Shown: piece after piece, positions 41,057 to 62,311 of the stretch | Numbering within the stretch: the first letter of the stretch is position 1 | Layout: each line of letters starts with the position of its first letter | Source: Microlunatus elymi | Lineage (GTDB): Bacteria > Actinomycetota > Actinomycetes > Propionibacteriales > Propionibacteriaceae | Direction of reading: 5' to 3' | Length of the DNA stretch: 64,000 bases | Assembly: GCF_007362775.1 (NCBI RefSeq) | Contig: NZ_CP041692.1 | Location: 2,666,001-2,730,000, forward strand | The notes under the pieces: generated by a model | Seen by the model: only the letters and a program-made list of their open reading frames with translations | Database searches by the model: none | What the model was told of the DNA's origin: nothing | Position numbers and translations under genes: made by a program

Positions 41057-41473
41057 TCGTCACTCTCGTTTCGGTCTGCGGTCGGGGCCGGCCGAGCTTG
41101 CGGTCCGTGCGTCGGGACCGAGGTAATGAGCAGACGGTAGCGTGATTTGGGCGGCCCAGTCGTCCAACACTCGGAATGGCTTGCGGTGTGCGCGGCGAAG
41201 AACGGTTATCGCCTTGCGTCGCGACGAGGACTCTGCCAGGAAACCAGCGGGCCAGTCGCTTGAACTGACGCCATGGCGGAGGCTCCTCACGATTCGGGCC
41301 GCCAGCGGACACATTGGGCGAACGTGAGGTGTCGTCGTTAGTATGTCGCGAGCCGCGCAGGCGTGGCCTCTGCGTGAGGTCGATGGCGAGTTGTCTAGTC
41401 TGCCCTGTCGGCCAGGCTTGAGCCCTTGAGAGAAGCACCAAGCCCTGTTCGTGGAGATCGGAGGACGGATATC
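41057..41473. other. Divergent intergenic region, GT4 / glycerophosphotransferase
   Basis: About 417 bases separating two divergent starts. GGAGG at 41460-41464 serves the + strand gene. I see no convincing small gene or long repeat; both promoters must lie here. Confidence 0.4.
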
Positions 41474-44400
41474 GTGGCGCTGGGGTCGCTGAGCTTGCGT
41501 GGGTCCCGGGTGAGCGGGGTCGCGCGACGTCTGCCGACCCCCCTGAAGCGCCGCGCTCGTGCGATTGCGGTTGCAGTGGCGCGACCGCCTGCACAAGAGC
41601 GGCCCAGCCGACTCAAGTTCAGCATCGAAGGCGACTACGCGGTCCTGAAGTTCGATGTGCGGCGCGGCCGGAAGCGTCCGACTGGTGTTTGCCTGTGGAT
41701 GCGTGACGGCCGGCACTGGTTCTACAAGGTGTCGCAGCCCGATGCGAAGGGGATGCAGAAGGCCCGGATCAACCTTCGGAAGTTGATCGAGCGACAGCAG
41801 CTCTCGGGGCAGAGCGCCGACTTGTACCTGGATTGGCGTGACACCAAGGTGCAGCCTCCGATGTTGGAGCGGCTCGGGAAGTTCGACGAGACGACGCGCG
41901 CGCGCTGCTTCGACCAGGTCGAAATCGACGGTGTCGAGGTGGTGCTTGAGCCCACTGGGTTGGGCAACCTGTCGGTGCGGTTCAATCACTCGAACGTCTA
42001 CAAGCCCAAGGTGGAGTACCGCCGTATCGACTGGCACCGGTCGAGTGTGACGCTCGTATGTCGTGTCCGGACGTACAACCGACCAATCCGCGACGCGGCC
42101 CTAGTTGTGACTGGGCGTGAGACCCAGAATCGAGCCGAGTTCTCGGTGACATACACCCTCGATAAGTCGGCAGCCCGAAAGGATTTTGGGCTGCTGAGCT
42201 ACGAGATGAAGATCGAGCTTGACTTCGAGGCGATAGCGAAAGCGCTTCACGACGACGACGCGACCTTGGACTTTGCGGTTGAGATGGCGACTCTGGGCGC
42301 AGATGCGCCACGACGTATAGGCCTCGTCCTGCCACCCGGAAAGTCCGAGCGCGATTTGCAGTCAATCCCAATAGCGTCCGGCAGGCGCGTAGCTTTTTTT
42401 GTCCCCTATCTGACGTTTCGCAACCGGCGACTGACCTTCCGCGTGGAGCGGTTCACTGAGGACAACTTCAAGCTGATGCGCAGGCTGCAGCGTGTCGGTT
42501 GGCTTGTCCCGCTGGTGAAGCCGCTGACAAAAGTCTGGTTGATTGGAGAGGTGCCGTATAAGGCGCAAGACAACGGATACCGGTTTTTCGAGTACGTACG
42601 GCGTAACCATCCGACGAAGCGTGCGTTTTACGTGCTCGATCACGACTCGCCCGATCGTGAGAAGGTAGCCAAGCTTGGCAATTTGGTCGAGCGCTTTTCT
42701 CGCGAGCACGTACTCTACTCGTTCTTGGCCTCGAGGATCGTCGGCTCGCATCACGCTGAGTATCTCTATGTCACCCGAGATCGAGCGATATCCCGGCATA
42801 TACGTGGCGTTCGTATATTTCTGCAGCATGGTGTGACGGCGACCAAAAATGTTGTGCCGAACTATGCGCGTCAGGGAACAGTGGAGAAGCCTACCGAGCG
42901 GTTTGTCGTCGTCTCCGAGCTCGAGCAGAAGATCGTCACCGAGGACTACGGCTACGCGCAACGGCAGGCGCCGGTTGCAGGCTTTGCGCGATTTGACTCC
43001 TTGTTTGGTGATCCGGTCACACCGGATCGCACAATTCTCGTCATGCCCACGTGGCGAGACACGCTCGTTCGACTCGAGAAATTCCTGGAGAGCGACTACT
43101 ACGCAAACTGGCACGGTCTGCTTGGCGATCCGCAACTACAGCGACTGGTCGAGGACCACGGCTACACCGTGACCTTTGTGGTTCACCCCAACATGCGGAT
43201 GTTCGCTGACCACTTCGATCTCCCGGGTGTGAGCCTGGTTCGGCAGGATGAGGTTGACGTTCAGGAACTACTTCGTCGCAGCTCCGTCCTTATCACCGAC
43301 TACTCAAGCGTTGCCTGGGACTTCAGTTTCCAGGGTCGTCCAGTGCTCTACTTCTTGTTCGACCTGCACAACCTGGCGAACGAGCGCGCACCGCATATCG
43401 ACTTCCACACGGAGTTGCCCGGTCCGGTCCTGTCGTCGCCGACAGACGTCATCGAGGAGCTTGCGGAGACGCTTCAGCGCGGCGCCGGCATGAAGCCCGA
43501 GTACCGTCGTCGCGCGGAGCTGTTCATAGACAACCGCGACACCGACAATTGTGCTCGGATCTACGACGTGGTGGAGAACGCCTGGACACCACTCACCGCA
43601 TGGGATCGCGTACGCAACTCGGACTGGGCCCAAGCGCAATGGTGGTCCTTCCGGAAGAGCGGTGAGACCTACTTTAAATGGGTGCGTCGCCTCTATGCCT
43701 TCGGTCAGCGGCTGCCGCGCAAGCAGACCGTCATGTTTGAATGCGACCGGGGCGCCCACTTCGGTGATGCCCCTCGTTATATCTACGAGCGTCTTATCGA
43801 GCGTGACCACGGTTTGAAGATCTTCTGGTCCAATAACACGACGCAGCGGTTCCCGGATCCCAATACGACCAAGATCAAGCGACACTCGCCTCGGTACTAC
43901 TGGGAGCTCTCACGAGCTCGCTACTGGGTTAACAACCAGAACTTCCCTGGCGATCTGAGCAAACCGAGGCGGACTCGTTTTCTTCAGACATGGCACGGCA
44001 CGCCCTTGAAGCGCATGCAGCACGACGTTCCACACATGTTGAGTCGCGATCCCGGATACCAGGAGCGGGCCGCGCGGCTGACAAGCTACTGGGATGTCCT
44101 GCTGTCGTCCGGTCCGTACGCCACCGAGTGCTTTCGAAGTGCGTTCCGATACGAAGGGCCGATCCTCGAAGTGGGATACCCGCGGAACGACCCGTTCTTC
44201 TGGGGTGACGCCGCGACACGTGCCCAAGAAGTGCGGTCCCGGCTAGGGCTCGGATCAGACAGCCGAAAGATCCTGCTGTACGCCCCGACCTTCCGTGACG
44301 ATGAGCGCAAAGGCGTTCACTGGAAGCACAAGATCGAGCTGGACCTGGACCGGCTCGTGCGTGAGTTCGGCGACGAGTACGTGGTCGTGGTGCGCTTCCA

Positions 44401-44884
44401 CCAGCTGGTCAGGCAGTCGATGACGAAGCTCAAGCTGAGCCGCGACGATGTTCTGATTGACGGCTCTACCTATCCAGACATTCAAGAGCTTCTACTTGCG
44501 ACTGATGTGCTCATTACGGACTATTCGTCAATCTTCTTTGACTTTGCCCTTCTCCGCCGTCCAATCCTGTTCTTTGCCTACGACATCGAGAAATACGAGA
44601 AGGATCTCCGCGGTTTCTATCTCGATCTCGCCGAGAGCGCGCCGGGTCCAGTGCTTCGCACGAACGATGAATTGTTCTCGGCCCTCAGTGATCTGGAAGG
44701 CCTCACCGCCGAATATGCCGATCGGTTGGCCGACTTCGCTAGACGGTACGGTCCCGCAAGTGACGGGGGTGCCAGCGATCGGGTGATCGACGCGTTCTTC
44801 GGCAACATTCCAGTCCTGAGTCAGGACGGGCCCCGCAATCGTGTGGACCCGGCCCCCGTCGACGTCAGGTTTGAGGCATCGTGA
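41474..44884 (+). CDS. Double-domain CDP-glycerol:poly(glycerophosphate) glycerophosphotransferase
   Basis: A 1136-residue wall teichoic acid-type polymerase. Two glycerophosphotransferase (TagF-like) domains occur in tandem after a 300-residue accessory region. The first has GVRIFLQHGVTATKNVV and LITDYSSVAWDFSFQGRPVL; the second has RFLQTWHGTPLKRM and LITDYSSIFFDFALLRRPIL. Each has the TWHGTPLKRM- or LQHGVT-like acceptor histidine and the ITDYSS donor motif. GTG 41474 is chosen because of GGAGG nine bases upstream. Two catalytic modules in one chain could make an alternating or mixed polyol-phosphate polymer. Confidence 0.88.
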   Translation: MALGSLSLRGSRVSGVARRLPTPLKRRARAIAVAVARPPAQERPSRLKFSIEGDYAVLKFDVRRGRKRPTGVCLWMRDGRHWFYKVSQPDAKGMQKARINLRKLIERQQLSGQSADLYLDWRDTKVQPPMLERLGKFDETTRARCFDQVEIDGVEVVLEPTGLGNLSVRFNHSNVYKPKVEYRRIDWHRSSVTLVCRVRTYNRPIRDAALVVTGRETQNRAEFSVTYTLDKSAARKDFGLLSYEMKIELDFEAIAKALHDDDATLDFAVEMATLGADAPRRIGLVLPPGKSERDLQSIPIASGRRVAFFVPYLTFRNRRLTFRVERFTEDNFKLMRRLQRVGWLVPLVKPLTKVWLIGEVPYKAQDNGYRFFEYVRRNHPTKRAFYVLDHDSPDREKVAKLGNLVERFSREHVLYSFLASRIVGSHHAEYLYVTRDRAISRHIRGVRIFLQHGVTATKNVVPNYARQGTVEKPTERFVVVSELEQKIVTEDYGYAQRQAPVAGFARFDSLFGDPVTPDRTILVMPTWRDTLVRLEKFLESDYYANWHGLLGDPQLQRLVEDHGYTVTFVVHPNMRMFADHFDLPGVSLVRQDEVDVQELLRRSSVLITDYSSVAWDFSFQGRPVLYFLFDLHNLANERAPHIDFHTELPGPVLSSPTDVIEELAETLQRGAGMKPEYRRRAELFIDNRDTDNCARIYDVVENAWTPLTAWDRVRNSDWAQAQWWSFRKSGETYFKWVRRLYAFGQRLPRKQTVMFECDRGAHFGDAPRYIYERLIERDHGLKIFWSNNTTQRFPDPNTTKIKRHSPRYYWELSRARYWVNNQNFPGDLSKPRRTRFLQTWHGTPLKRMQHDVPHMLSRDPGYQERAARLTSYWDVLLSSGPYATECFRSAFRYEGPILEVGYPRNDPFFWGDAATRAQEVRSRLGLGSDSRKILLYAPTFRDDERKGVHWKHKIELDLDRLVREFGDEYVVVVRFHQLVRQSMTKLKLSRDDVLIDGSTYPDIQELLLATDVLITDYSSIFFDFALLRRPILFFAYDIEKYEKDLRGFYLDLAESAPGPVLRTNDELFSALSDLEGLTAEYADRLADFARRYGPASDGGASDRVIDAFFGNIPVLSQDGPRNRVDPAPVDVRFEAS

Positions 44885-45100
44885 GCGTGGCGGCGTTCCG
44901 TGCGGTCACCGCTTCATCGGTCCTCGCGACCCATCAATCGGCGAGAGAGGCTGGACGACTCGCCCAGGCTCGTGGATACTCTCTGTCGGGCCGCATGCCT
45001 ACGGTAAAGGCCTGCCCAAGATGGTGGAGCGACAGTGGAGAGTTGGAAATCCGTTCAGAGCGCCCGCCCAGCGCACAGAGTAACGGGGGGTGATGAATAG

Positions 45101-46381
45101 GTGGTCGATTCAGCGACGACTATCCCATCCCGCTTGGGGCCGCACTCAGTGCGGCGCGCCCAGCGGTGGTGGCGTCGTCACCGCGACCACCAGCGGCTGC
45201 AGCGGGTGCCCGCCTATCACCGGCATCGCAACCGTCAGTTCGACGTGCTGTTGCACTTCCCGGATCAGCCGGTCAACCTGTATCAGGTCCGGCAGTGGTA
45301 TGGCCCGCTGGAGCAGCTGTCGCGACAGCGGTCGACGGCGATCCTGTGTTACGAACCGGAGACCGCCGAGATCATCCGGACCGAGACTTCGCTACCGGTG
45401 TTGCTGATTCGCGGATCGGCCGACTTCGGCCACGTACGGGACGTGCACCGGCCCAAGGTGATCTTGTATCCGAATCAGAACTACACCAACTTCGGCATTC
45501 TCGGCCTGAACACCTGTCAGCACGCTTTCATTTGTCACGGCGAGTCCGACAAGATCTACATGGCGTCCAACTGGATGAAGGTGTTCAACTACGACCTGGT
45601 CGCCGGGCAGGCAGCCAAGGACCGGCTGAGCCGGCGGCTGTTCGGTTACGACGTGGAGGCCCGGACGATCGAGATCGGCCGACCGCAGATCGACGTCGAA
45701 TACAGTTCGCCGTTCTTCCTGGACAAGTCCCGGACCACCATCCTCTACGCCCCGACCTGGGAGGGCGGCCGGACCTCCATGCGGTACGGGTCGGTGGCCA
45801 GCCACGGTGTCGCGCTGACCGAGGCGATCCTGGCCGACCGTAACTACCGCCTGATCTATCGGCCGCATCCGCGCACCGGCATCGTGCTCAGCGAGCAACG
45901 GGTCGCCGACGAACGCATCCGAGGTCTGATCTCCGCCGCCAACGCCACCGACGCGTCCGCCGGCCACCTGGTCGACGACAGCCCGTTCGGCTGGCAGTTG
46001 AGCGTCGCCGATCTGATGATCACCGACATCTCCGCCGTCGCCTACGACTGGCTGACCACCGCCAAGCCGCTGATCGTGACCCAGCCGGAGGAGACCTCGG
46101 CGGTCGTCGATCCGACGAGCTTCATTGCTGATCTTGAGTTGGTGCCGTCCGGTGACGCCGGCCGGATCGTCTCGATCGTGCAGCGGGCGTTGACCGATCC
46201 CGCCCAACTCGAGCAGATGCAGCGCTGGTGCAGCTACTACTACGGCGACACCAGTCCGGGCGCATCGATGGCGCGGTTCATCGATGCGGTCGAGCGCATG
46301 ATCGCCGAACGAGACACCTGGGTCGGAGTTGATCATCCGGTTGCCGATGATCTTGATCGGGTCGGGCAGGTGGTTGGCTGA
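45101..46381 (+). CDS. Single-domain CDP-glycerol glycerophosphotransferase family protein
   Basis: A 426-residue relative of TagB/TagF. The front half has LNTCQHAFICHGESDKIYM, with the conserved H-G dyad, and the back half has ILYAPTWEGGRTSMRYG and LMITDISAVAYDWLTTAKPL (ITDIS in place of ITDYSS). GTG 45101 is preceded by a G-run. It ends in an overlap with the next gene (TGATG at 46379-46383). It may be a priming enzyme (TagB-like) for the polymerase upstream. Confidence 0.8.
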   Translation: MVDSATTIPSRLGPHSVRRAQRWWRRHRDHQRLQRVPAYHRHRNRQFDVLLHFPDQPVNLYQVRQWYGPLEQLSRQRSTAILCYEPETAEIIRTETSLPVLLIRGSADFGHVRDVHRPKVILYPNQNYTNFGILGLNTCQHAFICHGESDKIYMASNWMKVFNYDLVAGQAAKDRLSRRLFGYDVEARTIEIGRPQIDVEYSSPFFLDKSRTTILYAPTWEGGRTSMRYGSVASHGVALTEAILADRNYRLIYRPHPRTGIVLSEQRVADERIRGLISAANATDASAGHLVDDSPFGWQLSVADLMITDISAVAYDWLTTAKPLIVTQPEETSAVVDPTSFIADLELVPSGDAGRIVSIVQRALTDPAQLEQMQRWCSYYYGDTSPGASMARFIDAVERMIAERDTWVGVDHPVADDLDRVGQVVG

Positions 46382-47251: not shown

Positions 47252-47608
47252 TCAGAGGAACCAATGGGTTCCTGCTATGTCTGGACCCGACTCGGACCAC
47301 TCGGTGAGGGCAGCCGTCAGCGCACCGATCAGTCCGCGATTCTCCGGGAATCTGCGGTTTGCGATGCACAGTATTCCTGAGTGCCCCCGGCCCGCCGCAG
47401 CCCATTCGGTGTCGAGTTGCACGAAGTCTCCGATGTTGCGCGTCACCAGGATTCGCTTCTCAGCTGCAGCCGCCTGGAGGATCTCCGGGTCCGGGAGTGT
47501 CCGCAGGTCGGGCCTGGAGGACACTGCGACAGCGTCGATCGATCGCGCGGCCAGTTGCTCGGCAATCACGGGCGGAAGGTGCTCGTCCAGCATGAAGCGG
47601 GCGGTCAC
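47252..47608 (-). CDS. DUF5615 family PIN-like protein (putative toxin)
   Basis: A 118-residue protein beginning at a GTG that overlaps the preceding stop (GTGA, 47605-47608). It opens with RFMLDEHLPPVIAEQLAARS, the D-E pair of DUF5615/PIN-like proteins, and continues with LVTRNIGDFVQLDTEW, with the second acidic site. The family is found in toxin-antitoxin contexts. The coupled upstream gene is the candidate antitoxin. Confidence 0.75.
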   Translation of the reverse strand: MTARFMLDEHLPPVIAEQLAARSIDAVAVSSRPDLRTLPDPEILQAAAAEKRILVTRNIGDFVQLDTEWAAAGRGHSGILCIANRRFPENRGLIGALTAALTEWSESGPDIAGTHWFL

Positions 47609-48051
47609 GAGAGGAGTGCCCGACGGCGTTCCCACGCGTCCAGTGCAGCTTCTTCTGCCGCGTCGGCATCGCGAACCAGCTGGTCGATCTCGTCCGGATA
47701 GGCGAGGTAGTAGTCGATGGCGGATCGGATCTGACCTGCCGTCATGCCGGAATTCGTTGCCACCAGCTCGATCCTGGCATTGTCGGTCAGCTCAGGCTCG
47801 TGGCGCTTTGCATCGCGCAGAGAGCGAACAATCTCCCACACATCCGATCCCGCCATCAGGCCGGCGCGTCGACCGGTCGGCCCGTCGCGGAAAACGATCG
47901 CCGGATGTTCCCGCATTCGCAGTCCCTCGTCAACGAAGGAAGAAATCACCGCGGAGACTGACGTTCCCGGATGGCGGGCGGCGAACGCCCGGACCCGGTC
48001 CGGCACAGATGGATCGGTCCAGCGGACTGACGAAGGGTTTGACCGTGGCAT
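47605..48051 (-). CDS. Putative antitoxin upstream of the DUF5615 protein
   Basis: A 148-residue protein from ATG 48051. The first 50 residues (SVRWTDPSVPDRVRAFAARH, then TSVSAVISSFVDEGLRMREH) look like a ribbon-helix-helix DNA-binding region. The C-terminal part (GMTAGQIRSAIDYYLAYPDE and a charged helix) resembles DUF433-type helices. Coupling to the PIN-like gene by a GTGA overlap and its size support an antitoxin role; no direct family recognition is claimed. Confidence 0.65.
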   Translation of the reverse strand: MPRSNPSSVRWTDPSVPDRVRAFAARHPGTSVSAVISSFVDEGLRMREHPAIVFRDGPTGRRAGLMAGSDVWEIVRSLRDAKRHEPELTDNARIELVATNSGMTAGQIRSAIDYYLAYPDEIDQLVRDADAAEEAALDAWERRRALLS

Positions 48052-49410: not shown

Positions 49411-50190
49411 TCAGCTTTGGGCTTGGAAGCTGACTTGCTGTTGCTGCGTGGTGCCGCCGACGTCGTTGGTGACCACGCGGGCGATCTGGCTGGCCAGATC
49501 ATTTCCGGCGGTCTGCGGGCTCATGCCACGGGCCTGCGGTTGGGCAGAGCGCTGGAGCAGCTGTTCGGCATTGGCCTTCAGGTCGTCGAGCTCGGCTCGG
49601 GTCTGCGCGGACGGCGTCCGGCGGGCTCCGACGATGACCACCTGGATCGCCATCGCGGCACTGTTGCAGCCGGTGCAGTTCACCGTGCTGGCACTGGCGT
49701 GGTTGTTCACCACGACGGTCTTGGCGCGGCGCGCCAGCACCACCTGGATGGACAACGCGCTCGCGTTGGCATCTGCGCCGGTGGCCTGCGACTCGGCGAC
49801 GTTGTCGCTCTGCACCGTACGACTCCAGTCGACCGTGATCAGGTGCACGGTCTCGGCGGCGGCGTTACAGCCATCGCAACCGGACGTACCGACCGCCGCC
49901 GTGTTGATGGTGGTCGGGCGTAGGCCCCAACTGCGGGCCCGCGCGTTCGTCACCGAGTCGGTGACGTTCGGCTCCGCGGAACTGGGCAGCGCGACCGACA
50001 GCAACTCCAGGCGATCGGGAGTTTGCGAACCGCCGGCTCCCCGGGACACAGGTCCAGGGGAAACCGGCGGCCGCTCGGGGGAGACCGGATGGCGCGAGGG
50101 GAACGTGAGTGACGCACCGGTGACCCCCAGCACGAGGCTGGTCGCAACGGCGATCAGGAGACGACCGATCTGGATGGGCGTGTTGTGCAT
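49411..50190 (-). CDS. Secreted protein with two CxGCN motifs, peptide-cluster associated
   Basis: A 259-residue protein of no family I recognise. Residues 9-28 (GRLLIAVATSLVLGVTGASL) form a signal peptide, then a Pro-rich stretch. Two motif blocks follow: GCDGCNAAAETVHLITVDW (C105, C108) and NCTGCNSAAMAIQVVIVG (C172, C175), around strands rich in Ala, Asn and Val (ANASALSIQVVLARR). The C-terminus is Gln-rich (TQQQQVSFQAQ). ATG 50190 follows GGAGG and lies 33 bases after the M50 gene. The Asn/Ala/Val pattern recalls the core of the two small peptides. It may bind, carry or be the substrate of the protease. Confidence 0.7.
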   Translation of the reverse strand: MHNTPIQIGRLLIAVATSLVLGVTGASLTFPSRHPVSPERPPVSPGPVSRGAGGSQTPDRLELLSVALPSSAEPNVTDSVTNARARSWGLRPTTINTAAVGTSGCDGCNAAAETVHLITVDWSRTVQSDNVAESQATGADANASALSIQVVLARRAKTVVVNNHASASTVNCTGCNSAAMAIQVVIVGARRTPSAQTRAELDDLKANAEQLLQRSAQPQARGMSPQTAGNDLASQIARVVTNDVGGTTQQQQVSFQAQS

Positions 50191-50223
50191 GATTCCTCCG
50201 GCTTATCGCGATGACGATTTCGG

Positions 50224-51717
50224 TCAGAGACTGTCCGTCCCGGCGCTGTGGCGTGGCACGCTGCCGGTCGGTTGTCGATCTTGGTTCGTAGGATCTTGAC
50301 GGCCCCTCGGCAGGCTCAGGGACCTTTGATCGGGTTGGGCTGCAGTCACGGAGCTTTGATCGGGTTGGGCTGCACTGTGATCTTGGTCGGCGGTGGAGCT
50401 GCCGAGTGCCCAGCGGACCAGCGATCGGCCGAGCCGCCAGAAGAGCACCGCGATGCCGAGCAGCGGCAGCATCAGCAACAGCACCGAGACCACGGACAAG
50501 ATCAACAAGCTGATCTCGTGGCGTTGCATCCCGACCTGGAACTGGTCCAGCTGCACACCGACCGACTGCATGGTCGTCCTGATGATCACCGGCAGATTCC
50601 ACAGCAGCCAACCGAAACTGAACACCAGCACCGGTACCACGATCAGCACCCAGATGGTGACGAACCTGCGCGCACCGGGTTTGAGATCCGAGGCCGGTCG
50701 GTCAGCGCGACGTCCCGGCCGCAGTCCCATCAACACCGGCCGGATCCGGGAGAACAGATTCGGCACGCCGGTCAGATCGGCGAGGATGTAATACCCGTCG
50801 AACCGCACCAGCGGCAGCAGCTGCTGCACCATCTCCACCTGGAGCAAGATCAACACCAGCAGGAAGAACCCGTGCCCGGTGACCAGATAGGCGATCGCCA
50901 TCCCGATCACCGTGAGCGCGTTGAAGTAGAGACCGCCGAGATCGGTACGCAGCCGGCCGTTGCGGCTGAGCCGGTACGCATCGGTCACGTCGGTGTAGAA
51001 GGCCAGGAAGACGAGGTAGATGCCGAAGCCGATCCGGCCCGGCCGTCCGCCGCTGTAACGGCAGGCCGTGGCATGACCGAGTTCGTGCACCAGCGAGGTC
51101 AGCGTCATCGTGACGTACAGCGCCAGCAGCAGCCACGGCGTACTCAACACCTCGGTCAGCGCACTGGCCAGACCGGCTCGACCGGCGCTGATCAAGGTCC
51201 ACACGTCCAGTCCGACGAGTGCGACCAGCGCGACCCAGACGACCGGCGGCCAGTAGGCCGGACGAAGCACCGACGCCAGCCGGCGGGTGACGGACGGGGG
51301 CACCAGAGTGCCGCGGAAACTCAACGAGAGAATGGGAGTTGCCCGCGGCAACGTGGTCGGCGCTTGACCCGGACCCGCCGCTGCCGACGGTCCGGCGGTC
51401 ACCTGCACATCCGTCACCTCGCCGGCTGGACTCACCAACCCCAGCCGAGATAACGCGTTCGTCAGCAGATGCAGCAGGCCGTCCGGCGTCAGCACCCGGT
51501 CGTAATCCCGGCTGACCGCTTCGGCGACCTGCGGCAACGTACGGTCGGGGGAGAGTTCCTGCAGCACGAGCTCGATCAGAGCCGACACCTGCACGACCTG
51601 GCCGTCGGAGCGCCGTACCAGGTAGGTGGCCGACTGCAGGCCCGAGTCCTGCACGGGGCCCAACAACTCCAAACCGGGCGCGGTGCGCCAGCGGTCCACG
51701 TCGTTCGACGACTCCAT
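50224..51717 (-). CDS. M50-like membrane zinc metalloprotease with N-terminal PqqD-like region (peptide maturation)
   Basis: A 497-residue integral membrane protease. The zinc motif H211-E-L-G-H215 is in LTSLVHELGHATACR and the third ligand D308 in LPLVRFDGYYILADL; this FDGYY form is shared by YydH-like and peptide-zinc-metalloprotease proteins. About 100 residues at the N-terminus (SALIELVLQELSPDRTLPQV) look like a PqqD-type peptide-binding domain. About eight hydrophobic segments are seen. The C-terminal tail has a 30-base repeat (AAQPDQ). It follows two peptide genes and precedes the CxGCN gene, so its role is probably cleavage or export of those peptides. Confidence 0.8.
   Translation of the reverse strand: MESSNDVDRWRTAPGLELLGPVQDSGLQSATYLVRRSDGQVVQVSALIELVLQELSPDRTLPQVAEAVSRDYDRVLTPDGLLHLLTNALSRLGLVSPAGEVTDVQVTAGPSAAAGPGQAPTTLPRATPILSLSFRGTLVPPSVTRRLASVLRPAYWPPVVWVALVALVGLDVWTLISAGRAGLASALTEVLSTPWLLLALYVTMTLTSLVHELGHATACRYSGGRPGRIGFGIYLVFLAFYTDVTDAYRLSRNGRLRTDLGGLYFNALTVIGMAIAYLVTGHGFFLLVLILLQVEMVQQLLPLVRFDGYYILADLTGVPNLFSRIRPVLMGLRPGRRADRPASDLKPGARRFVTIWVLIVVPVLVFSFGWLLWNLPVIIRTTMQSVGVQLDQFQVGMQRHEISLLILSVVSVLLLMLPLLGIAVLFWRLGRSLVRWALGSSTADQDHSAAQPDQSSVTAAQPDQRSLSLPRGRQDPTNQDRQPTGSVPRHSAGTDSL
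50324..50374 (-). repeat. 30-bp tandem repeat in the M50 C-terminal tail
   Basis: The 21-base core CTTTGATCGGGTTGGGCTGC plus A is at 50324-50344 and 50354-50374, encoding two AAQPDQ blocks. A REP-like word precedes it at 50301-50321. Confidence 0.65.
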
Positions 51718-51826
51718 CGTTCCCCCGAGAATGTCCTTGTTCGAACAGATTGTGTCTACGCCGGTTCCGGTCGGTCCGCTGGGTGTGTGGCCAAACCGTG
51801 ATCAACTTCGCGGGACCGGCGGTGTG

Positions 51827-51871
51827 GCAGGCGGTGCCGACAGGGCTTTCGCCGGCCGGGGCACCGCCTGC
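51827..51871 (-). terminator. Strong hairpin between peptide genes and M50 gene
   Basis: GCAGGCGGTGCC (51827-51838) and GGCACCGCCTGC (51860-51871) pair perfectly, 12 bases with a 21-base loop. It lies 116 bases after the second peptide stop and 110 bases before the M50 start. It would let the peptides be expressed in excess over the protease by partial termination or mRNA protection. Confidence 0.6.
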
Positions 51872-51987
51872 AAACTCTTGTGATGTTGGCGTTCGTGCGA
51901 ACGCCCGGTTGCTTGTGAAGCCCGCAGAAATGGCGACGGGCGGTGGTCGACACCGTTATCGACCTCCGCCCGTCACAGACCGACAGG

Positions 51988-52194
51988 TCACCGCTGCCAG
52001 GCGCCGATTTGCTGCCACGCGTACGCGGTGGCGATCGAGTTGATCGTTGCCGCGTTGACTGCGATGGCCAGATTCACTCCAACCACCGTTGCGATGTTGA
52101 CGCACCCGATCGTGCACATCGTCTCCCGCGCAGGCAGCAGGCTTGCTGTCTGGGAGTCGAGCTCTGCAGTTCCCAAGGCTGGTTGCTTTTGCAT
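51988..52194 (-). CDS. Small precursor-like peptide B
   Basis: A 68-residue peptide with a strong ribosome site (GGGGAGGTGA) before ATG 52194. Leader: ELD at 11-13 and LLPARET at 19-25. Core 26-68: MCTIGCVNIATVVG, then a hydrophobic Ala/Asn/Val-rich stretch with NLAIAVNAAT and a Trp-rich end (WQQIGAWQR). Leader spacing is identical to peptide A (five residues between ELD and LLP). The CxxxC pair may be oxidised or modified. No known family recognised. Read with peptide A, 75 bases downstream of it. Confidence 0.75.
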   Translation of the reverse strand: MQKQPALGTAELDSQTASLLPARETMCTIGCVNIATVVGVNLAIAVNAATINSIATAYAWQQIGAWQR

Positions 52195-52269
52195 TCAGAT
52201 TCACCTCCCCCCAAGCCAACTGGCGACGTGCGCTGTCGCCGGCATCACCGCCTGGCAGCGGATCCCAGG

Positions 52270-52464
52270 TCAGCCCTGGCTTACGACAACTGCCTGATTG
52301 GCAGAGGCTTGCGCGTTGGCGAGCAGGCTGCCCGCGTTGAGCGCGATGGACGAGTTCGAGGCGTAGACGTTTGCCCAGTTGAAGTTGAAGAACAGGGTCT
52401 CCCGCTCCGGCAGCAGTTCCACGTACTCGGTGTCCAACTCGATGGTGCTGATTTCCTTGCGCAT
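52270..52464 (-). CDS. Small precursor-like peptide A
   Basis: A 64-residue peptide from ATG 52464, with AGGGGG eight bases upstream; GTG 52473 is a less likely start. Leader: ELD at 9-11 and LLPERET at 17-23. Core: FFNFNWANVYASNSSIALNA followed by GSLLANAQ and NQAVVVSQG. It shares with peptide B the ELD-x5-LLPxRET leader and the IA(L/V)NA core, in which Asn/Ala/Ser alternate with hydrophobics. There is no Sec-type signal. It is the first gene of the minus-strand group and its spacer to the divergent + strand genes is short (about 135 bases). Confidence 0.75.
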   Translation of the reverse strand: MRKEISTIELDTEYVELLPERETLFFNFNWANVYASNSSIALNAGSLLANAQASANQAVVVSQG

Positions 52465-52599
52465 CTTGATCACCCCCTAACCGCTGCGCTGAGGTCTGCG
52501 ACTACTCTGACCGCCGTCCGTCACGCCAGCGTTACTGGAAATCAATGTCGTCTAAAGCCCCAGATGTGACCTTCAACGGGTTTAGAATCCGCTGCAAGG

Positions 52600-52902
52600 A
52601 TGCCCGTGTCCGGGGTCCACAGCGCCGAATTTGATCATGCTCAGAACATGATCACCGAGAGTTTTCGCGAGGGGATGAGCAACATCGTTGTCGCGAACGA
52701 TCAACCAGCCGAGACACCGCCGGCCAGCGGTGTGATGGTGATCAACGTCCGGCACCGCGGGGGTGAGGACGGCGGTCTGTTGATCAGGCTGACCAGCGCC
52801 CTGGGCGACGCCGAGCCGGACGTCACGGTGGTGACCGCCGACGACGACGTGCTGACGGCGGTGGCGTCGTTCCTGAGGCGGTTCGAGGGACCAAAGTCCT
52901 GA
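52600..52902 (+). CDS. Small protein of unknown function, divergent to the peptide genes
   Basis: Up to 100 residues from ATG 52600; ATG 52675 with GAGGGG beside it is an alternative giving 75 residues. VMVINVRHRGGEDGGLLIRL and VTVVTADDDVLTAVASFLRR suggest an alpha/beta fold. No family recognised. A -10-like TAGAAT lies at 52583-52588. The position between the peptides and the regulators, and the small gap to the latter, suggest a part in the same system. Confidence 0.55.
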   Translation: MPVSGVHSAEFDHAQNMITESFREGMSNIVVANDQPAETPPASGVMVINVRHRGGEDGGLLIRLTSALGDAEPDVTVVTADDDVLTAVASFLRRFEGPKS

Positions 52903-52970
52903 CCTGGTGAGATTTCTCCCGGGACCCACCTCGGCTGCACCCCTACGGGTGATCATGGGCGCAGGGGAAC

Positions 52971-53804
52971 ATGGTGCTTGGACAACGGGGGACCCACGTC
53001 GCAGGCAACTCAGCAACGCTGACGCTGCTGGGCCGGTGGCGGCTGCGGGTCGGCGATCAGGAAATCATCTTGGGGCGGCGCGAACGCCGGCTGTTGGCCT
53101 GCCTGGCGATCAACGGCGGTCGCAGCCGGGACTGGCTGGCCGCGACTCTCTGGCCGGACGCCACCGAAGAGCGCGCGACGGCCAGCTTGCGAACGACCCT
53201 GTGGAGCCTGCGGCGTACGGTTCCGGGCCTGACCTGCATCACCGGAAGATTGCTCAGCCTGGGAGTCGGTGTGGAGAGCGATCTCGACCGGCTCCGGCAC
53301 GACATTTCCAAGATCACCTCGCGGACGTCCGCCGAGCAGACCGACCTCGACGAGGCCGGCGTGCTGCAGGTCTCGGTGGCCCCGGAGTTGCTCCCGGGGT
53401 GGTACGAGGACTGGGTGCTGTTCGAGCGGGAACGGCTCCGCAATCGACAGCTGGAGGCGCTGAAGTCGCTGGCGGACCGGGCCTTGCGTGCCGGACAGAC
53501 TCGGCCGGCGATCACCTACGCCAACGCGGCGATCGCGATCGAACCGCACGACGACCAGAGCGTGATCATGTTGATCAGCGCCCAACTCGAGCTCGGACAT
53601 GTCGCCGACGCACTGCGCAGCTTCCATCAGTACCGGACCAGGTTGCGTGCCGAGCTCAACGCACAGCCGTCGCTGCAGGTGCGACGGGTGATCGAACAAG
53701 CCCTGCCGGCTCCGCTGCGAAGCCGCTCGGCAACACCGGTGGCAGCACCGGTGGCCCGGGTCGTACGGCTCCGAGCGGGTCGTGTGGCCGGGCCCGGGAA
53801 ATGA
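52971..53804 (+). CDS. SARP-like regulator with HTH and BTAD domain (1)
   Basis: A 277-residue regulator. The N-terminal winged-helix part (LLGRWRLRVGDQEIILGRRE, then LACLAINGGRSRDWLAATLW) has an OmpR/PhoB-like look, as in SARP proteins. The bacterial transcriptional activation domain follows (WYEDWVLFERERLRNRQLEA; AITYANAAIAIEPHDDQSVI; YRTRLRAELNAQPSLQVRRV), with tetratricopeptide-type helices. There is no NB-ARC domain, so it is a short SARP. Such activators act on biosynthetic gene clusters; the divergent peptide operon is the likely target. Confidence 0.85.
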   Translation: MVLGQRGTHVAGNSATLTLLGRWRLRVGDQEIILGRRERRLLACLAINGGRSRDWLAATLWPDATEERATASLRTTLWSLRRTVPGLTCITGRLLSLGVGVESDLDRLRHDISKITSRTSAEQTDLDEAGVLQVSVAPELLPGWYEDWVLFERERLRNRQLEALKSLADRALRAGQTRPAITYANAAIAIEPHDDQSVIMLISAQLELGHVADALRSFHQYRTRLRAELNAQPSLQVRRVIEQALPAPLRSRSATPVAAPVARVVRLRAGRVAGPGK

Positions 53805-53906
53805 TCAACTTCGCGGAACGGGGGGACCGCATGAGATCGGCTGAATCAGGTCCGGGAAGCCGGGCTCCGGTACGAACTGGCGTTTCGGTTCGCCCGGTGC
53901 GCCACC

Positions 53907-54842
53907 GTGATCACACGCCTTCGGGCACACGATTTCCTTGTCCAGCGCCGAATTGTGTTCTCGGGGCGTGCCGTGACGGAACCCCTGAGTGACCCGGCCC
54001 TGCGTGATCCAGCCCTGCGTGATCCAGCCCTGCGTGATCCAGCCCTGCGTGATTCAACTCTGCGTGATCCGGCGTCACACGACCCGGACCTGCAGGATCG
54101 ATTGATGCGGGCCGGCCGACCGGGGGTTCGGCTGGAGGTGCTCGGCCATTGGCAGTTGACGGCGGCCGGACGCTCGGTCGCGTTGGGTCAGCGCGAACAG
54201 CGGCTGCTGGGGCTGCTCGCGGTACGCCGCAACGGCTCACGCAGCCTGATCGCCGGCACGTTGTGGCCGGACTCCTCGGAGTCGCTGGCGTTGGCGAATC
54301 TGCGCTCGGCGCTCTGGCAGGTCCAGCACCGGGTCCCGGCGATGATCGAGGCGCAGCGTTCCGAGCTGACCTTGGCCGGGTTCGTGCAGAGCGACGTCGG
54401 TGACTTGTTGACCATGGTCAACCTCTGCGAATCCGAACCGGACAAGGCAACTACCGACGACATCGCGATCCTGGCGACTCGGCGACTGCTCCCCGGATGG
54501 ACCGACGAATGGGTGCTGTTGGAACGTGAACGGATCTGCAACCGGCAACTCGCCGTGCTGCAGGCGGTTGCCCGAGATCGAGCGACCGCCGGCTGTCATC
54601 GGCCGGCGATCCTGGCGGCAGAAGCAGCGACCCGGCTGGAACCGCTGAGTGAGGACACCGTCGAGTTGTTGATCACTTCTCGGCTCGCGGTGGGCGACCG
54701 AAGCGGTGCCCTGCAGGCCTACCGGCAGTGGGAGCATCGGCTGCGTCGTGATCTTCGGCTGGAACCGACACTGCAGATGCGTCGGCTGGTGCCGCGACTG
54801 ATCGGGGATGCGACCGTCGATCAGCGCGACACCGGCGGCTGA
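53907..54842 (+). CDS. SARP-like regulator with HTH and BTAD domain (2)
   Basis: About 311 residues if GTG 53907 is the start. ATG 54105, behind AGGA, would remove 66 residues including the five 15-base repeats at 53991-54065 (DPALR) and is a real option. The core is a paralogue of the preceding gene: VRLEVLGHWQLTAAGRSVAL, LIAGTLWPDSSESLALANLR, WTDEWVLLERERICNRQLAV, HRLRRDLRLEPTLQMRRLV. Tandem short SARPs may form heteromers or act in turn. It converges with the GH95 gene, with the stops five bases apart. Confidence 0.82.
   Translation: MITRLRAHDFLVQRRIVFSGRAVTEPLSDPALRDPALRDPALRDPALRDSTLRDPASHDPDLQDRLMRAGRPGVRLEVLGHWQLTAAGRSVALGQREQRLLGLLAVRRNGSRSLIAGTLWPDSSESLALANLRSALWQVQHRVPAMIEAQRSELTLAGFVQSDVGDLLTMVNLCESEPDKATTDDIAILATRRLLPGWTDEWVLLERERICNRQLAVLQAVARDRATAGCHRPAILAAEAATRLEPLSEDTVELLITSRLAVGDRSGALQAYRQWEHRLRRDLRLEPTLQMRRLVPRLIGDATVDQRDTGG
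53991..54080 (+). repeat. 15-bp tandem repeats in the second SARP gene
   Basis: Units begin at 53991, 54006, 54021, 54036 and 54051, followed by a degenerate one at 54066. GATCCAGCCCTGCGT is exact in units 2-4. The unit encodes DPALR, so the count can change without frameshift; if ATG 54105 is the true start the repeats lie in the leader. Confidence 0.85.
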
Positions 54843-54846
54843 TGAT

Positions 54847-57264
54847 CTACAGCCGCCAGGCGGTGCCGGCGGTCAGCCGAATCCTCTCCTCGTCCCGGCC
54901 GGGCATCCGCAGCCAGACCTGCTGATCATCGGCGGAGTTGATCGTCAGCTCGGTGATCCTGCCGTCGGACCAGGCGAAGTCGATGGTCAGCCCGCCCCGG
55001 GCCCGTACGCCCCGCACCGTGCCCTCCGGCCACTCGGCCGGCAGGCAGGGCAGCAGGTCGAGGATGATCTCGCCGTCCCGGCGGCCGTGTGACTGCACCA
55101 GCATCTCGATCACGCCCGCGGTGGCGCCGAAGTTGCCGTCGATCTGGAACGGAGGATGCGCGCAGAACAGGTTTCGGTAGACCCCGCCGGCGTGCCGGCC
55201 GCTCTGCTGCTCGGGCACCGGACTGAGGAACAGCCGCAGACTCTGCAGGGCATGATCAACATCGTGCAGCCGTGCGTGCAGACAGATCCGCCAGGCCAGC
55301 GACCAGCCGGTGGAATGCGGACCACGCAGGCGCAACGATTCGGCCATCGCGGCAATCCGGTGCGCCTGCTCCGGGGCGTAGACGTTGACCGCGTCGCCGG
55401 GGAAGAGGTCGTAGAGATGCGACTGATGCCGGTGCTCGGGTTCGGCCTCCCGCAGATCGTCACGCCACTCCGGATAGCTGCCGCGTGCGGTCGGCTCGGG
55501 AAGGGGCAACCGCTGGTACGCCTCCGCCACGGCTCGGCGCCGGTCCCGGTCGATGCTGTCGCCCTGGGCGCCGACGATCTCGGCCGTCTCCAGCCAGGTC
55601 CGGAAGGCGTCCCGCAACAGCGCGATGTCCATGGTGGCTGAGATGGTGACCGCCGCGGTGTCGCCGTCCTCGGTGCGGAAGCTGTTCTCCGGCGAGGTCG
55701 ACGGCACCACGCCCAGTGACCCGTCCGGCAGGATGATCAAGGTCGCCAGAGCGAACTCGACCGCGCCGTCCAGGAGTGGCCACAGCCGCTCGGTCAGGAA
55801 CTGCCGGTCCCCGGTGAATTCGTAGTGCTCCCAGAAGTGGCGCAGCAGCCAGAAGCCCGCCATCGGCCAGGTTGCCCAACAGGGCTTGGCGGTTCCGTTG
55901 CCGACGGGCAGAGTGAAGCCCCACACGTCGGCGTTGTGATGAGCCGCCCAGCCGGGACGATCGAAGACGCGGCGGGCGGTGTCCACGCCGGTCTCGGCCA
56001 TGGTTTCGACCTGCTGGTAGAGCGGTTCGGCGCATTCGGCCAGATTGGCCGGCAGGACCGGCCAGTAGTTCATCTCGGTGTTGATGTTGACCGTGTAGTC
56101 GCTGCCCCAGGGTGGCTGCAGGTGATGATTCCAGATCCCCTGGAGATTGATCGCCCGGCTGCCCGGGCGGCTGGAGCTGATCATCAGATAGCGGCCGAAC
56201 TGGACCATCAGCGCGACCAGTTCCGGGTCGAGTTCACCGGCTGCTGAACCCTGCAGCAACAGGTCGGTGCTCGTCCGGCCCGACTCGGCTGTCTCGTGCG
56301 CCTCACCGGTTCGTGCCGTCTCACCCGTGTCGGCGCGGCCGAGTCGAAGATCGAATCGGTCGAACCAGGACGCGTACTCGGCTTCATGATCATCGCGGAG
56401 CGCGTCGAACTCGGCGTCGGCCGCCGCCAGGGCCCGAGCCGATGCAGCGGCGATCAACTGGTCATGATCACCGTGGGGCAGGGTGCGGGGATCGACGAAG
56501 TCGGTCTCGGTGGCGACCGCCAGTTGCAGCCAGGTCGCGTCCCGTACGGTGATCGTCTGCGCTTCGGTGTTGATCGTGCCGTCGGTGCGGACCGCGACCA
56601 CCACGGCCGCGGTGACGGCGTGTCCTGGCGCGTCGTCGAAGCGGACCGGCTCGTCCGGCCGATCCCGATCCGGTGCCACATCCGACGGCATCCGCGTGGT
56701 CAAGATCAACAGCCGATCGTCGGTGGTGAGGGTCGACCGCCCGTACTGCTGATGCGCGGCCTGCAGCGCGATGGTGATCGTCTGCGGCGTCCGATACCGG
56801 TAGTTGCCGATGATGGCGCCGGCCGGTGCACTGGCGAAGATCTCCGCCGAGGCCGCATCGGACTGCCAGCCCGTGATCGCAGTGTTCAGATCGAGGGTCC
56901 GCCGCTGCAGGGCGCCGACCTCGCCGGCGACCTCCAGCCGCAGGTCGGCCAGCGGCTGGTAGGTCTGGGCGTGGCCGTACTGGACCTTGTGGATCTCGCG
57001 TTCGGCGGTGGCCACATCGCCGTCCAGCAAGGCATTGCGGACGCGTTCGATGACCTGTGGCGACGGCTCCTGGCTGGCCGGCTCACCGACGACGTTGCCG
57101 GGCCAGCCGGACCAGCAGGTGTCGTCGTTGAGCTGCCAATGATCATGCTGCGGATCGCCGAAGATCATCGCGCCGAGCCGACCGTTGCCGATCGGCAAGG
57201 CGTCGGTCCACTCACCGGCCGCGGACTCGTACTGCAGTCGGTGATTTCCGTGTGCCTTGGTCAT
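54847..57264 (-). CDS. Glycoside hydrolase family 95 protein (alpha-L-fucosidase type)
   Basis: An 805-residue hydrolase of alpha-fucosides or related alpha-galactosides. The N-terminus (ALPIGNGRLGAMIFGD) and NDDTCWSGWPG are diagnostic of the family. The (alpha/alpha)6 core has SRAINLQGIWNHHLQPPWGS, DYTVNINTEMNYWP (catalytic region) and FQIDGNFGATAGVIEML. No signal peptide, so it probably acts in the cytoplasm on imported sugars. One base separates it from the upstream small gene. Confidence 0.92.
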   Translation of the reverse strand: MTKAHGNHRLQYESAAGEWTDALPIGNGRLGAMIFGDPQHDHWQLNDDTCWSGWPGNVVGEPASQEPSPQVIERVRNALLDGDVATAEREIHKVQYGHAQTYQPLADLRLEVAGEVGALQRRTLDLNTAITGWQSDAASAEIFASAPAGAIIGNYRYRTPQTITIALQAAHQQYGRSTLTTDDRLLILTTRMPSDVAPDRDRPDEPVRFDDAPGHAVTAAVVVAVRTDGTINTEAQTITVRDATWLQLAVATETDFVDPRTLPHGDHDQLIAAASARALAAADAEFDALRDDHEAEYASWFDRFDLRLGRADTGETARTGEAHETAESGRTSTDLLLQGSAAGELDPELVALMVQFGRYLMISSSRPGSRAINLQGIWNHHLQPPWGSDYTVNINTEMNYWPVLPANLAECAEPLYQQVETMAETGVDTARRVFDRPGWAAHHNADVWGFTLPVGNGTAKPCWATWPMAGFWLLRHFWEHYEFTGDRQFLTERLWPLLDGAVEFALATLIILPDGSLGVVPSTSPENSFRTEDGDTAAVTISATMDIALLRDAFRTWLETAEIVGAQGDSIDRDRRRAVAEAYQRLPLPEPTARGSYPEWRDDLREAEPEHRHQSHLYDLFPGDAVNVYAPEQAHRIAAMAESLRLRGPHSTGWSLAWRICLHARLHDVDHALQSLRLFLSPVPEQQSGRHAGGVYRNLFCAHPPFQIDGNFGATAGVIEMLVQSHGRRDGEIILDLLPCLPAEWPEGTVRGVRARGGLTIDFAWSDGRITELTINSADDQQVWLRMPGRDEERIRLTAGTAWRL

Positions 57265-61279: not shown

Positions 61280-62311
61280 TCAGGGGACGGCGACCGTGAT
61301 TCCGGGACTTGCGCTCGGATCGGCCATCGCGGCGAGGGCACGACCGGCGCCGGCGAGATCGGTGATGGTCGTGATCATCCGTTCCGGGTGCACCTTGCCG
61401 GACGTCACCAAGTCCAGCAAACCGCGGTAGTCGGCGGCGGCGATGCCGTGCGATCCGTGGATCGACAACTCCCAGGAGATCACCCGGTCCATCGGGATCG
61501 GCGGCGTTGCGGCATCGTCGAACAGCAGGCCGACCTGGACGTGATGGCCGCGGCGCCGCAGACTGCGTACCGATTGAACTGCCGTGGTCGCGGTCCCGGC
61601 GCAGTCCAGGCTGAGCGGTACGCCGCCGGTCAGCTCGGTGATCGCCGCGACGGGATCGTTCTGATCGGCTCGAACCACACGGTGAGCACCGACCGAGGAG
61701 GCCAGCCGCAACGCCGGCTCGGACACGTCGACCGCGATCACCCGTAGCCCGAGCGCGGCGCCGATCATGATCGCCGACAGACCCGCGCCACCGGCCCCGT
61801 ACACCGCCATCGGTTCGCCGGAGTTGATCTTGGCGTGGCCGGTGACCGCGCGGTAGGCGGTGGCGAAGCGGCAGCCGAGCGCCGCGGCGGTGGTGAAGTC
61901 AAGATCATCGGGGAGCCGGACCAGATTGAAGTCGGCCGCGTGGATGATCACCTGCTGGGCAAAGGATCCCCATCCGGTGAATCCTGGTTGGGTTTGCTGC
62001 GGGCACACCTGCGGATCACCGGCCCGGCAGAAGTCGCAGCGTCCGCAGCCACAGACGAACGGGGTGGTGACGCGATCTCCGATGTGCCACCGGGACACGT
62101 CGCGTCCGATCTTGATGATCACCCCGGCCAGTTCGTGCCCGCCGACGTGCGGAAACTCAACCGGATCGTGGCCGACCCAGGCGTGATAGTCCGAACGGCA
62201 CACCCCGGTGGCCCGGACCTCGATGATCACGCCGTCGTCCGGACAGGCCGGCGCTGCGACCTCGACCACCCGCGGCAGTTGGCCGACCCGGTCGTACGTC
62301 AACGCTCTCAT
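61280..62311 (-). CDS. Zinc-dependent alcohol dehydrogenase
   Basis: A 343-residue medium-chain dehydrogenase. The catalytic zinc ligands are in TGVCRSDYHAWVGHD and VGGHELAGVI; the structural zinc cysteines are in VCGCGRCDFCRAGDPQVC. The NAD(P) fold has the loop VYGAGGAGLSAIMIG, with GAGGAG, and the aspartate in VIAVDVSEPALR suggests NAD. Substrate unknown. It lies 18 bases before the serine hydrolase gene and may be transcribed with it. Confidence 0.9.
   Translation of the reverse strand: MRALTYDRVGQLPRVVEVAAPACPDDGVIIEVRATGVCRSDYHAWVGHDPVEFPHVGGHELAGVIIKIGRDVSRWHIGDRVTTPFVCGCGRCDFCRAGDPQVCPQQTQPGFTGWGSFAQQVIIHAADFNLVRLPDDLDFTTAAALGCRFATAYRAVTGHAKINSGEPMAVYGAGGAGLSAIMIGAALGLRVIAVDVSEPALRLASSVGAHRVVRADQNDPVAAITELTGGVPLSLDCAGTATTAVQSVRSLRRRGHHVQVGLLFDDAATPPIPMDRVISWELSIHGSHGIAAADYRGLLDLVTSGKVHPERMITTITDLAGAGRALAAMADPSASPGITVAVP

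Follow-up and report, generated by a model that had tools for sequence, protein, structure and literature searches.

The described systems closest to the locus presented here are daptides, epipeptides and curli. According to PMC10036551, daptides combine an RRE fused to the site-2 protease MpaP with several short precursors adjoining it. The epipeptide M50 protease EpeP is thought to cleave and export EpeX, whose production was not fully abolished by deletion of epeP, as reported in PMC10885120. Curlin, for its part, carries the published motif N-$-Psi-$-Psi-$-Q (PMC10192328).

The locus lies in the window, that is, the whole stretch of 64,000 nucleotides of Microlunatus elymi that was analysed. 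We prefer, with an even chance of being right, the explanation that the locus encodes a secretion module guided by peptide leaders, whose small structural products, probably left unmodified, would form amyloid-like fibres.

Gene content of the locus

All the genes named in a preliminary description of this DNA were found at 49411-54842 (Table 1). A Shine-Dalgarno-like purine-rich stretch stands 5' of the start in each of the four minus-strand genes (GGAGGTGA precedes the ATG of pepB, and GGAGGAATC that of the CxGC gene), and third-position GC is high in all of them (pepA 0.86, pepB 0.76, M50 0.83, CxGC 0.84). Translation of pepA could begin at the ATG at 52464, which gives 64 aa and is preceded by AGGGGG, or at an in-frame GTG at 52473, the former being the likelier start; in the second regulator, an internal ATG at 54105 is possibly the true one. 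A scan for sigma-70 promoters found none, and terminator-like sites numbered one, against a shuffled mean of 1.8.

Table 1. Features of the locus, in window positions
Feature	Positions	Strand	Remarks
pepA, 64-aa precursor peptide MRKEISTIELDTEYVELLPERETL...NSSIALNAGSLLANAQASANQAVVVSQG	52270..52464	-	profile E 2.4e-24, profile built including pepA
pepA leader motif LLPERET	52396..52416	-	L, P, R, E invariant in 16 aligned peptides
pepA core, 27 residues, N0...Q26 register	52276..52356	-	
pepB, 68-aa precursor peptide	51988..52194	-	profile E 7.1e-28, profile built including pepB
pepB leader motif LLPARET	52120..52140	-	
pepB core, 27 residues, same register as pepA	51994..52074	-	
M50 (site-2-type) membrane metalloprotease, 497 aa, N-terminal RRE-like domain	50224..51717	-	
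Protease RRE/PqqD-like domain, residues 8-99	51421..51696	-	
Protease site-2 core, residues 134-336	50710..51318	-	
Secreted CxGC repeat protein, 259 aa	49411..50190	-	N-terminal signal-like segment read by eye
CxGC protein, predicted all-beta strand-turn-strand repeats, residues 59-187	49630..50016	-	AF2 block pLDDT 82-98
CxGCN motif 1, residues 105-109, predicted turn	49864..49878	-	
CxGCN motif 2, residues 172-176, predicted turn	49663..49677	-	
100-aa protein of unknown function, divergent from the peptides	52600..52902	+	
Short SARP/BTAD regulator 1, 277 aa	52971..53804	+	BTAD E 2.5e-16
Short SARP/BTAD regulator 2, 311 aa as listed	53907..54842	+	BTAD E 1.9e-13

The protease had been read as an M50 enzyme with an FDGYY-type motif and a PqqD-like N-terminal region. 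In an alignment of 39 sequences including that of the window, H211, E212, H215, R305, D307, G308 and Y309 are invariant, the HExxH and DGY motifs thus being kept. In the AF2 model (pLDDT 82.5, pTM 0.78), the first ~100 residues are predicted to form a small RRE/PqqD-type domain and residues 134-336 an S2P-like core, which supports the proposed N-terminal region, though the Pfam PqqD model gave no match to this protease at E<=1. The model thereby points to an RRE fold on the processing enzyme, as in RRE-guided peptide maturation. In some genera the protease and the CxGC domain form one fused protein, while in the closest relatives a MinD/ParA-like ATPase domain is fused to the protease (8 of 80 relatives' loci, and L042-L044). 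This ATPase domain is missing from the protease of the window and is therefore not essential.

The two CxGCN motifs of the secreted protein were confirmed, and Pfam matched a BTAD domain in each of the two proteins described as SARP/BTAD regulators. SARP relatives adjoin the module in 9 of the 80 loci and in L042, and regulators also stand alongside it in a Streptomyces locus. The 100-aa protein had no relative at E<=1e-3 in the 80 loci and L042, nor did Pfam or NCBIfam give a match to it at E<=1. Like the SARP regulators, it is a local component.

Distribution and neighbourhood of the module

Of 394 genomes sampled from the class, 59 have the protease family, 58 of them at E<1e-50. This figure was reached from 103 genomes with a match at E<=0.001 by excluding the 44 with distant matches only; the remaining genome, G084, was retained because its short match is interrupted by a contig end. 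The peptides occur in 51 genomes, at least four of which (G000, G008, G101, G130) contributed sequences to the peptide profile, and all 51 have the protease (Fisher 4e-56). The CxGC domain occurs in 38 genomes, four weak matches (G016, G141, G161, G275; E 5e-4 to 8e-4) being excluded, and all 38 have the protease as well (Fisher 4e-38), the CxGC and protease profiles also including sequences from searched genomes. The co-occurrence of peptides, M50 protease and CxGC protein that the preliminary description had proposed to look for is thus found across genomes. It had also named, as grounds for giving up the idea, peptides that are not conserved next to the protease in any other genome. The opposite is seen: all 51 genomes with peptides have the protease, and 78 of 85 peptide matches lie within 4 kb of it. 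Of the CxGC matches, 41 of 44 are equally close.

Around the protease in relatives, 59 of 80 loci encode a peptide with the motif [LIV]Px[RK][EQ] upstream of the protease and on its strand, which exceeds chance: the count for the other strand upstream is 10 of 80, and that for the downstream side 1 of 64. Four of the 80 loci have <1.3 kb of upstream sequence, a few of the matching ORFs are clearly spurious, and the two locus sets overlap in some genomes. The strict motif missed 21 of the 80 loci. Eight of nine missed loci inspected hold variants (LPSRD, LPGRD, LPERAAM, or LPARTV with Gly-rich or other cores); for the ninth, L089, no variant is listed, yet it belongs to the ELPDRE peptide cluster. 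The CxGC domain is present in 62 of the 80 named loci, with one ORF each.

The scanned peptides and CxGC proteins matched no Pfam or NCBIfam family, and when the peptide and CxGC profiles were run against the sequences of solved structures, the best E values (0.27 and 0.1) pointed to no meaningful relative. A plasmid search with a large precursor as query gave no match, and in a RefSeq plasmid record the module genes are labelled 'hypothetical protein'. The module is widespread in actinobacteria. It is apparently undescribed, as the preliminary description had supposed.

No modification chemistry is indicated, contrary to the new chemistry considered at first. By eye, no modifying enzyme was recognised among the listed gene clusters common to several neighbourhoods, which were built from the calls of a simple GC3 gene finder, and Pfam found none in 20 of the 21 called ORFs flanking the region in the window (37.9-49.3 and 54.8-64.0 kb). 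An FtsX-type ABC pair, recognised by eye, lies near some loci (permease in at least 14 of 80, ATPase in at least 12 of 80) and was left out of the module because its position is not fixed; another ABC-type cluster is found in at least 6 of 40 neighbourhoods. The module as one more RiPP with unknown chemistry was rejected as the leading view. Export had likewise been thought new for want of an ABC gene; this does not follow from the missing exporter alone, because the two roles of cleaving and exporting EpeX have already been proposed for EpeP (PMC10885120).

Peptide cores, the CxGC partner and the proposed mechanism

The peptides share a leader with LPxRE, followed by a gapless core where variable positions alternate with conserved ones occupied by small or amide residues, as in the beta-arches of curlin. 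Their description as precursor-like is supported. Several copies per locus are encoded among relatives, as in the window. The core register is common to all 105 distinct peptides among the 123 motif-selected from relatives, the register pattern itself demanding N, D or G at position 0, N or Q at 6 and Q at 20. In a set of 15 cores sharing <=60% identity, with inward and outward positions chosen by the analyst and turn positions 7-11 omitted, mean entropy is 0.68 bits inward and 2.77 outward, a difference reached in 0 of 20000 permutations. Leaving out the three positions partly fixed by the register pattern gives 0.93 inward against 2.77 outward, again with 0 of 20000, and charged or aromatic residues make up 0% of inward and 18.7% of outward positions in the same cores. 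The cores grade into repeat proteins of 220-502 aa adjoining the same protease family, and by eye they are not hydrophobic transmembrane segments.

Site-2 proteases frequently have regulatory roles. The M50 protein could thus be mainly a regulatory intramembrane protease, with peptides that are regulatory membrane peptides or M50 inhibitors rather than products, and the regulators adjoining the module in the window and in one Streptomyces locus would fit such a role. The leader-plus-core layout, the multiple copies, the large-repeat variants and the non-hydrophobic cores argue against it, so that it is considered very improbable.

The repeats of the CxGC protein keep the register of the peptides, their Cys falling on core positions 9 and 12. 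A matrix built from 103 peptide cores alone, applied without choosing repeats by their Cys, places Cys at 9 and 12 in its best-scoring position in 49 of 53 CxGC proteins, against a mean of 0.72 and a maximum of 7 with permuted columns and at most 2 with cyclic rotations. In the CxxC repeats that were tabulated, by comparison, these columns are fixed by selection, because the repeats were picked with the pattern C..C.......Q. The CxxC pairs are near-invariant and stand at predicted turns. The CxGC protein is modelled as an all-beta repeat, and the best PDB matches of this model, to the fibrils of FapC and CsgA, fall below significance.

Near-invariant CxxC pairs at turns would also suit a protein that acts on structural cores outside the cell as chaperone, inhibitor or redox sensor, through disulfide exchange and not as a template, as would the secretion of CxGC as a protein of its own in the window and in Streptomyces. 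This role is judged unlikely, since the repeat register of the peptides is what would be expected of a template and the fused forms keep the domain at the membrane beside the protease.

The same register bears on a RiPP-like antibacterial or signalling system, in which M50 would free a soluble bioactive core and CxGC would serve in immunity, as a receptor or as a carrier. Known daptide systems have RRE-M50 proteases and known epipeptide systems M50 proteases, multiple peptide copies per locus are reported for daptide clusters (PMC10036551, PMC10885120), and the protease of the window is closest to the daptide and epipeptide protease models. A core register common to the secreted partner, cores that grade into large repeat proteins, unlike small antibiotics, and the lack of a modifying enzyme among the listed shared neighbours or in 20 of 21 flanking ORFs leave this system with a rather low probability.

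In the preferred explanation, fold and conservation suggest that the N-terminal RRE of M50 binds the peptide leader, with LLPxRE as the likely recognition or cleavage motif. Within or at the membrane, M50 would then cleave off the leader and release the core, as proposed for EpeP; leader cleavage is considered likely. Outside the cell, the core of ~27 residues may fold into a strand-turn-strand beta-arch whose N, A/S and Q point inward. Fibre assembly is inferred from sequence: given the residue alternation and the resemblance to curlin, the arches of many peptides would stack into an amyloid-like fibre. The CxGC protein would likewise be built from similar arches, stacked and bearing Cys at two positions in the turns, possibly acting as nucleator, cap or surface anchor, like CsgB for CsgA. 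In the clade of the window, the divergent SARP regulators probably activate the operon, as their position suggests.

If true, this explanation would tie RiPP-type leader processing to extracellular fibre assembly, and provide both a compact example of protease-mediated export and a source of short, genetically simple self-assembling peptides. Peptide export by an M50 protease alone would become a directly testable question. The protease is found in 59 of 394 genomes, yet the scanned peptides and CxGC proteins belong to no Pfam or NCBIfam family.

Comparison with described systems

Daptides share with the locus an N-terminal RRE on an intramembrane protease, multiple short precursors and hosts that include actinobacteria, as described in PMC10036551. 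However, the leader carries LPxRE here and ELExMEAP in daptides, a CxGC partner is present here, and the invariant C-terminal Thr of daptide precursors is missing from the window peptides (pepA ends in ...SQG and pepB in ...WQR; the 105 relatives include peptides with a terminal Q, N, G, R, M, P or T). Pfam found no iron-type alcohol dehydrogenase, aminotransferase or methyltransferase in 20 of 21 flanking ORFs, and this enzyme trio was not recognised by eye among the listed shared neighbours of relatives; the sole dehydrogenase in the flanks (61280-62311) belongs to the zinc type and lies 6.4 kb outside the region. The protease scores 109.8 bits with NF041824, whose cut-off is 300, and is the sole match to this model in the whole genome, at 108.5 bits. 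Score, C-terminus and missing trio led to the rejection of daptide membership.

Epipeptides resemble the locus in having a membrane M50 protease (EpeP, YydH/LiaK) thought to cleave and export a ribosomal peptide (PMC10885120), and differ in their core, in the CxGC partner present here and in their radical SAM gene. No radical SAM epimerase was recognised in the seven genes of the region, in 20 of 21 flanking ORFs or among the listed shared neighbours, and NF058609 scores 58 bits against a cut-off of 225, so that membership of the YydH/LiaK type was rejected too.

To our knowledge, the chaplins and rodlins of Streptomyces have neither an LPxRE leader nor an M50 partner. They are likened to the module as secreted fibre-forming actinobacterial proteins (PMC5314377).

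Membership in the curli system was rejected: the curlin repeat PF07012 had no Pfam match in the window peptides at E<=10, its two sub-threshold matches in the genome being located elsewhere, and CsgG had no match in the genome in a search whose control found it in E. coli. The passing remark that the core is faintly curlin-like turned out to be the best lead. The motif N-$-Psi-$-Psi-$-Q resembles strand 1 of the peptide core, inward N, A and Q alternate in the strand-arc-strand repeat of curlin as they would in the arch proposed for the core, and a second protein has the same repeat, CsgB in curli and the CxGC protein here (PMC10192328); the top matches of the CxGC model to FapC and CsgA, below significance, extend the likeness to Fap. 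The module is set apart from curli and Fap by a longer second strand, by putative single-arch subunits that carry a leader, by its RRE-M50 protease and by its Cys-bearing partner. It is possible, at somewhat less than an even chance, that the module represents a further way in which bacteria, here actinobacteria, build amyloid-like fibres, joining single-arch subunits with a RiPP-type leader, recognised by the RRE and both cut and exported by the one site-2 protease without an ABC or CsgG-type channel, to a seed that is a Cys-stapled copy of the same arch, fused to the protease in some genera, with Gly-rich cores and those of 220-502 aa taking the same route.

Co-occurrence of the peptides, the protease and the CxGC protein

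When the same 394 genomes of the class were searched with the RRE-M50 protease, a CxGC profile and a peptide profile, the protease family was found in 59, the leader-bearing peptides in 51 and the secreted CxGC protein in 38, and at the thresholds applied none of the 394 contained peptides or CxGC proteins without the protease. Fisher values for co-occurrence with the protease are 4e-56 for the peptides and 4e-38 for the CxGC protein, although they overstate independence because the genomes are related. Among the 59 protease genomes, the peptide profile returned nothing in 8 and the CxGC profile nothing in 21. Most matches are also physically close, with 78/85 peptide and 41/44 CxGC matches lying within 4 kb of a protease. 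The other seven peptide matches comprise five on contigs lacking a protease and two distant on the protease's own contig, while the other three CxGC matches are all on protease-less contigs (C4 of genome G136, C122 of G021 and C138 of G199), whose genomes encode the protease elsewhere.

In addition, 80 protease relatives were kept as named loci; since at least 573 were reported, the family is larger than the set examined. These loci come from Nocardioides, Streptomyces, Kitasatospora, Arthrobacter, Sinomonas, Pseudonocardia, Mycobacterium, Mycolicibacterium and others, as well as from MAGs labelled Thermoleophilia, Acidimicrobiia, Rubrobacteraceae and Chloroflexi. Motif peptides are encoded upstream on the same strand in 59/80, compared with 10/80 and 1/64 in controls, and the CxGC domain is present in 62/80.

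Organization of the module and its variants

In Microlunatus elymi, each of the four minus-strand genes of the module is preceded by a Shine-Dalgarno-like stretch and is GC-rich at third codon positions. The peptide genes pepA and pepB are the only matches to the peptide profile, which includes both, at E<=1 in the genome (a single 5.12-Mb contig). Judging from its sequence, the second SARP regulator may actually start at a downstream ATG, because its listed N-terminal part contains a DPALRDPALRD repeat. In the surroundings, the DUF5615 PIN-like protein and the frame overlapping it could possibly form a toxin-antitoxin pair, and genes of the teichoic-acid wall polymer type are found a few kb from the module.

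Coordinates of the module, its neighbors and selected features of related loci
Feature	Sequence	Position	Strand	Remark
Two CDP-glycerol glycerophosphotransferase-domain proteins	window	41426-46378	+	one also with a TarS-like part
DUF5615 PIN-like protein	window	47252-47635	-	
148-aa frame	window	47605-48051	-	immediately upstream of, and overlapping, the DUF5615 gene
pepA (64 aa), pepB (68 aa), membrane protease (497 aa), secreted CxGC protein (259 aa)	window	49411-52464	-	
100-aa protein and two short SARP/BTAD regulators	window		+	divergent from the peptides
DPALRDPALRD repeat	window	53980-54100		in SARP 2 as listed
ATG, possible start of SARP 2	window	54105		
Glycoside hydrolase family 95 gene	window	54847-57264	-	convergent with the second SARP gene
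Protease with C-terminal ATPase domain	L042	6617-8902		
Protease with C-terminal ATPase domain	L043	7483-9861		
Protease with C-terminal ATPase domain	L044	7834-10125		
502-aa precursor	L071	10094-11602		central repeat between two core-like ends
CxGC domain	G136, C4	27243-27806		contig without protease

The closest relatives (genome G008 and several Nocardioides, Intrasporangium and Actinomycetales loci) encode pepA- or pepB-like peptides, followed by a protease-ATPase fusion and then the CxGC protein; a SARP frequently lies close by. The fused domain is MinD/ParA-like with a KGGVGKTT-type loop, and occurs in the tabulated examples and in 8/80 named loci; in its place, the protease of the window has a short terminal tail modeled with low confidence. 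Streptomyces loci combine one to three peptides of about 70 aa with the protease and, in most loci inspected, a separate CxGC protein. In Frankiaceae, Acidimicrobiaceae and Thermoleophilia MAGs, peptides bearing ELPDRE or ELPERA are arranged in rows and have cores of the NANLAAPVNAAVAANVLSDNS type. In some Nocardioides, Arthrobacter, Mycobacterium and Mycolicibacterium loci, ALPxKE precursors of 220-502 aa carry repeated NVAAPIDAAVAAN units, and there the CxGC domain forms the C terminus of the protease. The central repeat of the L071 precursor scores 37.7 bits against the Pfam 5-fold beta-flower family, just under the cut-off of 38.

In a further group, LLPxR leaders are joined to Gly-rich or other cores; peptides with Gly-, His/Gly- or Asp/Gly-rich cores adjoin the same protease family in L104, L116, L073, L149 and L163. 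Low-complexity cores of more than one kind therefore appear to use the RRE-M50 route.

Inspection by eye of the listed neighbor clusters revealed no gene type common to all groups beyond peptides, protease, CxGC and local regulators. ABC-type genes are found near some loci in variable positions. An FtsX-like permease, named by eye, is present in 14/80 and an ATPase in 12/80, for instance 2915 bases downstream from where the match begins in L084 and about 2-3 kb upstream in L118, possibly reflecting shared synteny only.

Proposed mechanism and conservation of the core

By analogy with the daptide protease MpaP and the epipeptide protease EpeP, the RRE likely binds the leader and the M50 domain likely cleaves it. 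The same protein would then export the core; cleavage and export by EpeP is a published proposal, although epeP deletion did not fully abolish the product (PMC10885120). The exported cores could stack into fibers nucleated by the CxGC protein, as suggested by their sequence pattern, the register they share with it, the protease-CxGC fusions and weak structural matches.

One gapless register fits 105/105 distinct motif-selected peptides. Across 15 cores at <=60% identity, mean entropy is 0.68 bits at positions predicted to face inward and 2.77 at those predicted to face outward, a difference reached in 0/20000 permutations, and charged or aromatic residues make up 0% of the former and 18.7% of the latter. 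Omitting positions 0, 6 and 20, which are partly fixed by the search pattern, gives 0.93 versus 2.77 (again 0/20000).

Relation to known systems

No Pfam or NCBIfam family exceeded its cut-off in the peptides or CxGC proteins scanned. On a RefSeq plasmid of Streptomyces sp. NBC_00557 (NZ_CP107797.1), the genes for the peptide, the protease and the CxGC protein are each annotated "hypothetical protein", and three more distant proteases in the same plasmid collection carry the name mpaP. Titles and abstract openings on daptides, RRE-M50/site-2 proteases, functional amyloids and RiPP fibrils, including few subscription journals and no supplements, contained no description of the module. A term search of the main text of a 2025 RRE survey (PMC12710340) found no mention of site-2 proteases, daptides or amyloid. 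The daptide survey (PMC10036551) picked one cluster set from several RRE families, so the module's family may be among those left unreported.

Neither a Pfam curlin repeat in the window's peptides nor CsgG in the genome was found, and the relation to curli is therefore one of resemblance, not membership. The curlin motif is described as N-$-Psi-$-Psi-$-Q (PMC10192328), with two strands linked by a short arc. Strand 1 of the module's cores, N-x-[AS]-x-A-x-N, matches this pattern, whereas their strand 2 is longer than that of curlin.
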